Positions 6,668-9,762 of a stretch of 41,220 bases of DNA are shown here, piece after piece. The translations under genes and the position numbers were made by a program. Under the pieces are notes generated by a model, which saw only the letters and a program-made list of their open reading frames with translations, did no database searches and had not been told where the DNA came from. Position 1 is the stretch's first letter. Each line of letters opens with the position of its first letter. The DNA lies in the NCBI GenBank assembly GCA_023299885.1, contig JALZUS010000058.1, positions 1 through 41,220 of the forward strand. Reading direction: 5' to 3'. The stretch comes from Bdellovibrionales bacterium. Its GTDB lineage: Bacteria > Bdellovibrionota > Bdellovibrionia > Bdellovibrionales > UBA1609.

Positions 6668-8962
6668 TTATTTACTGCACTTTTTTTCTAGGTCATCAAT
6701 GATAGAAATATGGTTTTTGTACTCTTCTATACTCGCTGATCCACCTGTAGTCGAAATACTTCTCATATATAACTTATATTTCTCAACTTCGTAATTATCA
6801 ACAGTAGTGAATCTTATTCTTTTACCACTTTCTGATTGAGTATATTCTTCATCAAACCAGGCCATCCTACCTTCTTCGTATTTTTTTATATTAGAAAAAT
6901 TAGTACAATCTACAGAGTCTAAAAGCAAATCAGTTGTAACTGCAATTAACTTAGCTGACCTCTCTTCGTATGGCTTTAAATCTTTAGCTGTTCGTTGATT
7001 AATTACTGTATGAATTAGATTGCTTTCACTACTGTTTATATTTTTATTTACTAAGTGATAAATCCAATACCTAGTCCACGGGCTATAGCCATCAAGGTAA
7101 TATGCATATTCATGATCTTTATTCTTTTCTTTGAAGTCTGCTAAATTTTTGGATACCTCCACTAACTCTCTCTCTACATAGGCTAAGTGCTTTTGCAAAG
7201 CTGCTTTATTCGCAGGCTTATATTTTAAAAGTAATGAAATAGCATCTTCAACTTCATCATATAAATCTGAAGCGATGTCTACATCAATTTCTGACAAAGC
7301 TTTGTTTTTTGCTTTTTCATAGTTTAATTTTATAGCTCTCAAAACTTTTTCTGTAGAATATTCATTACCTCTTAGTATAAATAAAGCACCTCGATTTAAT
7401 GAGTCATTTCGTGAATTTAATTGTTTATAAACTTTTTCTGAGATCTTAATATCTTTCACCTCGAGGCAACCTACAGCCCACATAGTAAACACATCCCACT
7501 CGCCTGAGTAAAAGGCATCTATTGTAAGCCCTGGTATTTCTAAATCCATAGTACAAATAAGCTCGGCTCTTTCTCTTGGAACATTAGCAGCCTTTAAATC
7601 CCCAATTAAATTATTTCTGTAGCTAGTAATTTCATCTTTTGAAAAGATATTTAACTCGTCAGAAATTTCTAGCATTGTCGCTCTTATCTGAAGCATCCCA
7701 GGTATGTCCTGCCTAAGGTATTTATCAAATGTGGCTTTTGCATTTGCGTTGGTTGAAATTGCTTTCTTGATTTCATCTTTGATTTTTACTGGTATTGATT
7801 TAAAAAAGCTTTCCAGTTTAGAAGCTGATTTTTTAAATTTAGCAGTGTAATAACTTGGATTTAATATACTTTTTTGCTCTAAACTTTTAGACTCAGAGTC
7901 TGAAAGCTCAAGTATTTTTTCATCTCCTGAGTTATACGTATACTCCCTCATTCCATTTTCTATCTGATCTAAATAATAAGAGATAAAAGGCAACGATTCT
8001 AATAACTTAGACTCGTCATCAAGTATTTCATTAATATGCGCAAGTTTCTGTATTTCTGTGACATTATCACTCATTAACATACATGCAGAGCTCGACATCT
8101 TATCTAAAGACCCAGCCGCTTGCTCTTGGCTTGTAACTGCCAATGATTTTGTCCAATTTGTATTACTTTTTTCTGCAGACACTTCACTAAGATGCTTTTC
8201 ATAATCAGGAAGCCTTTTAAAGTAATCCACAAGCATATGCCTTACATTTTGACCTGCTGGCCCTACAGAATCAAAGCCGTAAATTTTTTCTACAGAACTA
8301 AAGGCACGGCTCATTCTGTTATGAAAACTTGGCCCTACTGGAGAGTACCTAAAAGCAGCAATCTGTTGTGCTTCAAGCTCTGAAAAACCATCTTCCACTA
8401 AAACTCTTATATAAGCCTCTGGAGACCTATGGTCTTTTGCTTTGCCCGCTAGCGTATTACAACCAAATAAAAAGACCTCTTTTGGATTATTTAAAATGCC
8501 CTCACAAGAATTAGTGCAAGATAAAGCCTCTAATTTTTCCATAGAAAGAGTTTTCCCTGAGTCTCCAAAAAACTCACCGCCAAAATGTCCTGATACAACT
8601 AAAACATCACATTTTACTCCCGACTGACAAGACTCATCCATCCAATCGTCACCATCATTATCATCGCCAGCGTCAGTAAGTTCTATAAAGTTAAAGTTAG
8701 GCAATGCTTGCTGAAAAACTTCTCTCTCATCTTTAGAGTTAATTGTTATCGTACATACAGTTTTTTTATTTGGGTCTAAATTAGAAACCTTGTCGTCTAA
8801 AGAGGCTATACTACGAGTTGCAGTATGCTTTTTAAATACTCTTTTAGGTTTATTTTTATCTACTATTTTCTGTAAAGTATCACTGCTAATAGCAGCTTTT
8901 TTAGTTGCCGATGTACATCCAAAAAGTAGCACAATAACCAAGGCATTTATTATTTTAAACAT
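6668..8962 (-). CDS. Large predicted lipoprotein with caspase/CHAT-like His-Cys domain
   Basis: A 764-residue protein that I do not recognise as a named family. It begins with a lipoprotein signal (hydrophobic residues 5-14, Cys16 in LLFGC), and AAGGA stands seven bases before the ATG. Residues 65-240 look like a clan CD cysteine-peptidase fold. Alternating strands and helices lead to DVLVVSGHFGG (His126) and then EVFLFGCNTLAGK (Cys168), the spacing and hydrophobic lead-ins expected for the His-Cys pair of caspase-like or CHAT domains. An acidic stretch (DAGDDNDGDDWMDE, about 97-110) lies just before and could bind calcium. The rest (about 270-764) is helix-rich, charged and possibly repeat-like, with no motif I recognise. 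It is divergent from the pilin gene and convergent with the DUF839 gene. Peptidase activity is an inference from the motif pattern only. Confidence 0.6.
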   Translation of the reverse strand: MFKIINALVIVLLFGCTSATKKAAISSDTLQKIVDKNKPKRVFKKHTATRSIASLDDKVSNLDPNKKTVCTITINSKDEREVFQQALPNFNFIELTDAGDDNDGDDWMDESCQSGVKCDVLVVSGHFGGEFFGDSGKTLSMEKLEALSCTNSCEGILNNPKEVFLFGCNTLAGKAKDHRSPEAYIRVLVEDGFSELEAQQIAAFRYSPVGPSFHNRMSRAFSSVEKIYGFDSVGPAGQNVRHMLVDYFKRLPDYEKHLSEVSAEKSNTNWTKSLAVTSQEQAAGSLDKMSSSACMLMSDNVTEIQKLAHINEILDDESKLLESLPFISYYLDQIENGMREYTYNSGDEKILELSDSESKSLEQKSILNPSYYTAKFKKSASKLESFFKSIPVKIKDEIKKAISTNANAKATFDKYLRQDIPGMLQIRATMLEISDELNIFSKDEITSYRNNLIGDLKAANVPRERAELICTMDLEIPGLTIDAFYSGEWDVFTMWAVGCLEVKDIKISEKVYKQLNSRNDSLNRGALFILRGNEYSTEKVLRAIKLNYEKAKNKALSEIDVDIASDLYDEVEDAISLLLKYKPANKAALQKHLAYVERELVEVSKNLADFKEKNKDHEYAYYLDGYSPWTRYWIYHLVNKNINSSESNLIHTVINQRTAKDLKPYEERSAKLIAVTTDLLLDSVDCTNFSNIKKYEEGRMAWFDEEYTQSESGKRIRFTTVDNYEVEKYKLYMRSISTTGGSASIEEYKNHISIIDDLEKKCSK

Positions 8963-9201
8963 AGTATTTCCTTATTTAGTTTTAATAATTACAGTAGTTT
9001 ATCGGAAATATGAGGCTACAAATTAAGCCAAAGAGCCCTAACTAGACCTTATTTATAAAATGCCTAACTGAGAGATATTTAGATCACTAGACCTGCCACA
9101 CAGACCAACTTCCCAATTTAAGACAGACTAAATACTTGTATAGCTTTTAAATTTCTATAAATCGATACCCTCTGATACAATCCAATATAGAGGTGCCTAG
9201 C

Positions 9202-9762
9202 ATGAATATTACTAAAAATAAAAAAGGATTCACGCTCATAGAGCTTATGGTCGTTGTTGTCATCATTGGCATACTAGCCACTATTGCTGTACCTCAATAT
9301 CAAAAGTTTCAAAAAAAATCGAGACAAAGTGAAGCTAAAGCTGGGCTTGCTGACCTCTACACGGCACAGCAAGTTTTTAAATTACAGCATAAAACTTATT
9401 ATAATAACCTTTGGGCAACAGGATATGAACCAGTAGGAGTTATGCACTATGCAGCCTATATAATTACTGAAACAGGAGTAACGACTCCACCAGGGTTTAA
9501 CACAAGTACTTTGCAAAAAGGGGCCCTCAATACAACAGTACAAATTTGTGGAACTTCGTTTGCCGATGGAATTAGCCAAGATTGTATGCGACTGCCTGAA
9601 AGCATACCTGACGCCTCTGATATACCTAACTTATTTGACCATAGAGCTACTCCTACAACTTTTTTAGCTGGAGCAGCCACTAAGTCTGATGACTTTTATG
9701 ATGTGTGGACGATAGACCATAGAAAAACATTTGTTAATGTAATTGATGGGGTTTTAAATTAA
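9202..9762 (+). CDS. Type IV pilin (PilA-like), intact
   Basis: This 186-residue prepilin has a short basic leader, NITKNKKG, cut before Phe10. The mature start is [20 protein letters not shown], with Glu5 (residue 14) needed for assembly. The C-terminal half has two widely spaced Cys residues (ICGTSF and QDCMRL), which could form the disulfide of the D-region. The end, [19 protein letters not shown], is shared with the pseudogene at 3646-4023. The ATG at 9202 was chosen over an upstream GTG (9193) because AGAGGTG lies six bases before it and the leader then has normal length. The gene is convergent with pilR, four bases away, and lies beside the pilus assembly operon, so it is probably its major pilin or a main subunit. 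The 239-base upstream region shows no convincing sigma70 or sigma54 promoter. Confidence 0.93.

Follow-up and report, generated by a model that had tools for sequence, protein, structure and literature searches.

A putative exported cysteine endopeptidase family with a predicted clan CD-like fold in Bdellovibrionota

Introduction

Few kinds of exported caspase-fold proteases are known in bacteria. Clan CD peptidases are endopeptidases with specificity for P1. Separase carries helical repeats on the same chain, and CHAT proteins (PF12770), such as the TPR-CHAT of Craspase, show a CNT-like reading after the Cys and are fused to helical repeats. In clan CD, to which human separase belongs as an enzyme that cleaves after Arg, the catalytic His comes before the Cys, with the former at the C-terminal end of strand 3 of the caspase sheet and the latter at that of strand 4, and the substrate loop L5 carries a conserved aromatic residue (PMC4357240). 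In caspase-7 and MARTX-CPD, the second residue ahead of the Cys (Gln184 and Val138, respectively) forms part of the S1 lining, and in the clan the region of helix 1 helps to set the P1 charge (PMC4357240). A Gly preceding the catalytic His is a further feature of the clan. Its families can lack sequence homology with one another, and YabG was proposed as a member on the basis of its dyad and specificity (PMC12445089).

Here we describe a gene in a 41,220-nucleotide stretch of DNA from a Bdellovibrionales bacterium (the window), whose product had been read in a preliminary description as a lipoprotein with a caspase- or CHAT-like His-Cys pair.

Results

The gene and its surroundings

The open reading frame at 6668-8962, which has an ATG start, was confirmed as a gene. 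It is present in a single copy in its own genome, and its homologues are of comparable length. A PhoX phosphatase gene is convergent with it, with the two stop codons 2 bases apart, while a pilin-like gene lies divergently 230 bases upstream and is followed by PilR/PilS-like and T2SSF genes. The pilin-like gene (window 9193-9762, plus strand) has an N_methyl match and weak PilA and ComP_DUS matches, and together with the PilR/PilS-like regulators and the T2SSF gene it resembles a piece of a type IV pilus cluster. The main parts of the gene are as follows.

6668..8962, minus strand: whole gene, 764 aa, with no operon partner
8915..8962, minus strand: export signal with lipobox LLFGC and Cys16 (residues 1-16), read from the sequence and also found in the closest relative, L016
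8069..8767, minus strand: clan CD-like peptidase domain (about residues 66-298), predicted from family alignments, the AF2 model and Foldseek matches to caspases
8642..8674, minus strand: acidic stretch DAGDDNDGDDW (residues 97-107), unconserved except for Trp107 (88%)
6671..8065, minus strand: C-terminal part (residues 300-764), with no Pfam match; its first helices fall within the model of residues 58-335

A near-invariant His-Cys pair

The motif DVLVVSGHFGG begins at residue 119 and EVFLFGCNTLAGK at residue 162, and His126 and Cys168 stand where the preliminary description had put them, each after a predicted strand. The corresponding features are the following.

8564..8608, minus strand: motif DVLVVSGHFGGEFFG (residues 119-133), comprising strand 3, Gly125, the putative catalytic His126 and the loop L3 hairpin (conservation, DSSP)
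8585..8587, minus strand: codon of His126, the putative general base (conservation)
8441..8479, minus strand: motif EVFLFGCNTLAGK (residues 162-174), comprising strand 4 and the putative catalytic Cys168 (conservation, model)
8459..8461, minus strand: codon of Cys168, the putative nucleophile (conservation)
8252..8281, minus strand: YGFDSVGPAG (residues 228-237), the end of strand 5 and the next loop, located where clan CD enzymes have their L5 substrate loop (model, conservation)

Across 88 diverse members of the family, His126, Ser124, Gly167 and Asp119 are 100% conserved, and Cys168, Thr170, Leu165, Cys118, Glu79, Asn75 and Cys70 are 99% conserved. Since His126, Ser124, Gly167, Asp119, Cys168 and Thr170 are the most conserved of all positions in these 88 members, the two motifs exceed what would be expected by chance. 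Among 143 database matches, His was found in 139 of 139 rows and Cys in 139 of 140 where the column is present, although the rows were aligned by a profile favouring the His and Cys positions, which biases the exact fractions upwards. The pair is thus near-invariant in the kind of homologue alignment that had been proposed as a check, and the clan CD idea survived it. The sole exception at the Cys column is a Ser in L071 (402-2315, genome G035; GSHTSG), a candidate dead or serine-using form.

Other positions also agree with the features of clan CD. The residue before His126 is Gly in 86/88 members and Ala in 2/88, Pro235 is 98% conserved, and residue 230, at the end of strand 5, is Phe, Tyr or Trp in 88/88; from its place we infer that this aromatic is the counterpart of the conserved one in loop L5. 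The residue two before Cys168 is Phe in 66/88 members and Met in 14/88. In two distant relatives, L076 (804-2162) and L077 (877-2316) from genomes G026 and G029, only part of the domain was matched, with SGHHGGEFFG...GCYP and SGEHGGHFFG...GCYPT, and these sequences point to a wider superfamily.

The predicted fold resembles that of caspases

A first AlphaFold2 model of residues 66-255, built from 13 sequences, had a pLDDT of 88.7. Caspases made up nearly all of its Foldseek matches listed from the PDB, with one alpha/beta hydrolase (7ebo_B) among the top 50. The model of residues 58-335 from 88 sequences reached a pLDDT of 95.3 and a pTM of 0.92, and shows strands at 68-73, 91-94, 120-124, 130-132 (a hairpin), 162-166, 226-230 and 279-282 with helices between them. 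In this model, His126 comes directly after main strand 3 and Cys168 directly after strand 4 of six, as in the clan CD dyad. All 50 of the 50 listed PDB matches were caspases, with a best E-value of 4.5e-4 and probabilities of 0.90-1.00. The matches often span 265-280 columns, with TM scores of 0.23-0.49 and an rmsd of 8-15 Å for most. The six predicted strands follow the order of the clan CD sheet, of which five strands are parallel and one is antiparallel; this agreement is in strand order, at TM scores below 0.5.

Because caspases are numerous in the PDB, we used a viral library with fewer caspases as a check. An ascovirus executioner caspase ranked third (0.94) and a Clostripain-related C11 protease fifth (0.84); the leading matches also included three unnamed or uncharacterised proteins, after which the probability drops to 0.69 and 0.11. 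The spacing between His126 and Cys168 is 42 residues. In the models, fold, topology, dyad order and spacing, together with the near-invariance of the pair, therefore bear out a clan CD-like His/Cys peptidase domain, and the structure prediction and fold search that had been suggested gave a caspase-like result with which the earlier idea stands.

No sequence relation to named clan CD families

The family is nameless in Pfam, NCBIfam, PADLOC and PDB sequence searches. Pfam and NCBIfam scans of the 88 members matched no clan CD model and gave no model that covers the domain, PADLOC gave no credible match, and searches of the PDB by sequence (phmmer, hmmsearch) gave no convincing match to the 764-aa protein or its family profile. 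With hhalign, C14 and C25 profiles from the same phylum scored 12-15 against shuffled means of 13; as these scores are at the shuffled level, we did not use them as support. The C14 alignment puts SGH on SGH and Cys on Cys, at a score that is not significant.

The individual families were rejected in the same way. For peptidase C14 (PF00656), hmmscan matched no member and hhalign stayed at the null level, and the organism's own genome contained no C14 match. Peptidase C25 (PF01364) gave no hmmscan match and an hhalign score at the null level, and was absent from the same genome at the threshold used. CHAT (PF12770) matched no member by hmmscan; a CHAT search across the phylum was silent, as it was in the control genomes, so that this silence does not speak for absence. 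Separase (C50) had no Pfam match, and none was listed when the family profile was compared with all PDB chains, separases included. Membership in CHAT, C14 or C25, which the preliminary description had considered, thus found no match by sequence.

Comparison with known systems

Caspases (MEROPS C14A) are the best matches of the predicted fold and share its strand order, with His at the end of strand 3 and Cys at the end of strand 4, as well as the loop L3 hairpin and, following strand 5, a loop with a conserved aromatic residue. The His-Cys spacing of 42 is also that of caspase-7 (His144/Cys186, PMC4357240). Unlike caspases, however, which have Gln two before the Cys, the family mostly has Phe or Met there, is exported and cysteine-rich, has a long C-terminal part, and shows no profile match. 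Separase (MEROPS C50) is alike in motif only, its His being part of a GH and its Cys of an (L/F)FGC(N/S)(T/S) motif (YAGHGAG...LLFGCSSA in human separase), whereas it is a eukaryotic intracellular enzyme with a His-Cys spacing of 26 and is not among the listed fold matches. Metacaspases and orthocaspases (MEROPS C14B) share the SGH motif and a Cys after the next strand, and their weak hhalign alignment is in register, but the profile score is not above that of shuffles and Pfam C14 matches no member. Gingipain-like peptidases (MEROPS C25) are secreted-type clan CD enzymes common in the same phylum, but they too gave no profile match and are not found in the organism's own genome at the threshold used. 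CHAT proteins resemble the family in the CNT-like reading and the helical C-terminal part, whereas the Pfam CHAT model matches no member.

Export signal, acidic stretch and cysteines

The lipobox noted near residue 16 is present: Cys16 closes the hydrophobic LLFGC stretch, in which the Phe at -2 is less usual, and the product is a predicted lipoprotein. The signal sequence likewise agrees with the export that had been proposed. By a simple rule, most members of the family have ordinary signal peptides, a rough count, as the rule overlooked the lipobox of the 764-aa product itself. Since the lipobox is common to L016 and yet ordinary signal peptides prevail, membrane anchoring is probably a local variation within the family. 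The proposed lipoprotein anchor thus holds for the protein's own branch and not for most relatives.

The acidic stretch is present at residue 97, as had been noted, but is not a feature of the family, being mostly a gap or non-acidic in relatives. It therefore gives no ground for a calcium site, and the suggested calcium dependence is not supported.

In addition to Cys168, six further cysteines are conserved (C70, C112, C118, C149, C153 and C294). Losses of C112 and C153 (p=1.5e-5) and of C149 and C294 (p=3e-6) occur jointly, with p-values that ignore relatedness, and the paired losses are mostly found in one or two clades, thus representing few events and being suggestive only. From the export signal, the seven cysteines and these losses, the sequences suggest an extracytoplasmic enzyme with three disulphides (likely C70-C118, C112-C153 and C149-C294) and a free nucleophile.

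The corresponding tail of some relatives contains significant HEAT repeats. The protein's own tail scored 19 against the HEAT-like tails of relatives, compared with a mean of 15 and a maximum of 21 for shuffled sequences, which is not significant.

Distribution of the family

Members were found in 11/47 genomes by a genome-family search, and the profile of the N-terminal domain matched 52/141 genomes of the order and 101/369 genomes in 52/182 genera of Bdellovibrionota, with up to five matches per genome. A single-sequence scan of genome contigs gave nothing, whereas an alignment-based scan did find members. No family members were found in phages and plasmids. Named carriers include Bdellovibrio sp. 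qaytius (two copies), B. bacteriovorus kdesi, Pseudobdellovibrio, and Bacteriovoracaceae and Halobacteriovorax MAGs, and two further family-bearing genomes are presumably those of B. bacteriovorus HD100 and Tiberius. In Burkholderiales, the carriers include Ramlibacter montanisoli, R. paludis, R. monticola and Aquabacterium terrae.

In a quick tree, 21/21 Burkholderiales rows group as a single clade, supported by an SH-aLRT of 99, that lies among the Bdellovibrionota rows, which fits a single transfer to Burkholderiales. There the gene nearly always comes in two tandem copies that share a strand and, in most loci, have similar lengths; 27 loci contain two members.

L128, L133, L134, L137-L142, L145, L147-L151, L153-L164: Burkholderiales tandem-pair loci

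Beyond these tandem copies, no conserved neighbour genes were found at family loci, in a comparison that is noisy at high-GC loci owing to antisense ORFs. Gingipain-type C25 domains occur in 46/144 genomes of the same phylum, and at L195-L207, L210 and L211 in Bdellovibrionota they lie within open frames of about 1,900-3,500 aa.

Discussion

Taken as a whole, with its mechanism, we consider it probable that the product is an exported, lipid-anchored putative cysteine endopeptidase on a clan CD (caspase) fold. The core of this explanation, a clan CD-like peptidase, is well supported by conservation and the predicted fold, whereas similarity in sequence lends it no support. As judged from the modelled fold, the protein with good probability works in the manner of a clan CD peptidase, and by sequence the protein is not a C14, C25, C50 or CHAT member. 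For the family, the best reading is one of exported, probably disulphide-stabilised, predicted clan-CD-type endopeptidases whose C-terminal half is helical. In the proposed mechanism, disulphides would stabilise the exported domain, His126 would activate Cys168, and Cys168 would attack a peptide bond gripped by the loops that follow strands 1, 4 and 5, while the helical C-terminal part may present the substrate or regulate access. In most members Phe or Met stands two residues ahead of the Cys (Phe in human separase), and helix 1 starts with the nearly invariant Glu79; by analogy, we would therefore expect a preference for a basic or hydrophobic P1 rather than Asp. The most likely job would be the limited processing of proteins in the envelope or outside the cell, rather than bulk digestion or a task specific to predation.

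We counted against the clan CD reading the failure to link the protein by sequence to any of the clan's families, the TM scores below 0.5, the high rmsd and the Ser in L071, as in dead enzymes. That the domain has the clan CD fold but serves in ligand or partner binding, or employs His and Cys in another transfer reaction, with the helical tail as the working part, seems unlikely. The Ser for Cys, the unusual Phe or Met at the second position ahead of the Cys, and the distant L076 and L077, which share part of the domain and of which one has Glu for His, would fit such a protein; His in 139/139 and Cys in 139/140 rows across two phyla are what one expects of a catalytic pair, and the predicted substrate-loop residues Pro235 and aromatic 230 are conserved as well. 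It is very unlikely that some other alpha/beta fold merely resembles clan CD and uses the two residues for other chemistry or a metal. Although the low TM scores, the absent sequence signal and the appearance of 7ebo_B in the first search speak for it, the deeper model listed only caspases from the PDB, the named leading viral matches are clan CD peptidases, and the order of His and Cys, their strand positions, the Gly before His and the spacing all fit clan CD.

A different question is where a clan CD-like endopeptidase would act. The preliminary description had suggested action on prey, and a lipoprotein displayed or shed to digest prey proteins would suit a family that is common in Bdellovibrionota, occurs in up to five copies per genome, and has members both in Bdellovibrio sp. 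qaytius and in what is probably the B. bacteriovorus HD100 genome. This suggestion is weakened by the single clade in Burkholderiales, as Ramlibacter and Aquabacterium are not known as obligate predators, and by the finding that the family is missing from some three quarters of the Bdellovibrionota genomes searched and present in only about one quarter. Moreover, no conserved neighbour ties the family to predation genes, and the prey-exit proteases that have been tested are others, of the serine type (PMC12546842). The prey-lytic proteases named in that proteome paper are Bd2269, Bd2321 and Bd2692 (PMC12546842), and the Bdellovibrio papers found name no caspase-like or metacaspase-like protein in title or abstract. 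We therefore regard a predator's weapon as quite unlikely. The patchy distribution of the family in Bdellovibrionota and its occurrence in Burkholderiales favour instead a general role in processing outside the cytoplasm.

It is an even call whether these proteins represent a further clan CD family beyond the eight in MEROPS (March 2025). Such a family would be exported and disulphide-stabilised, with caspase-like spacing, a separase-like FGC(N/S)(T/S) and a helical, partly HEAT-like C-terminal scaffold, and would be old in Bdellovibrionota, passed once to Burkholderiales and working there as tandem pairs. This family, nameless in the libraries searched, spans about a quarter of sequenced Bdellovibrionota together with cultured Ramlibacter and Aquabacterium strains, and its structure, if confirmed, would be a new branch of clan CD that bears on the links among caspases, separases and their bacterial relatives. 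The member in the apparent B. bacteriovorus HD100, a genetically tractable strain, makes activity, substrate and a role in predation directly testable.

In that genome, the member (L225, 4277-6100, plus strand) is located between universal-stress-type and D-2-hydroxyacid-dehydrogenase-like genes, and the neighbourhood includes murC, murG and an ftsQ-like gene, as named by eye from their translations.
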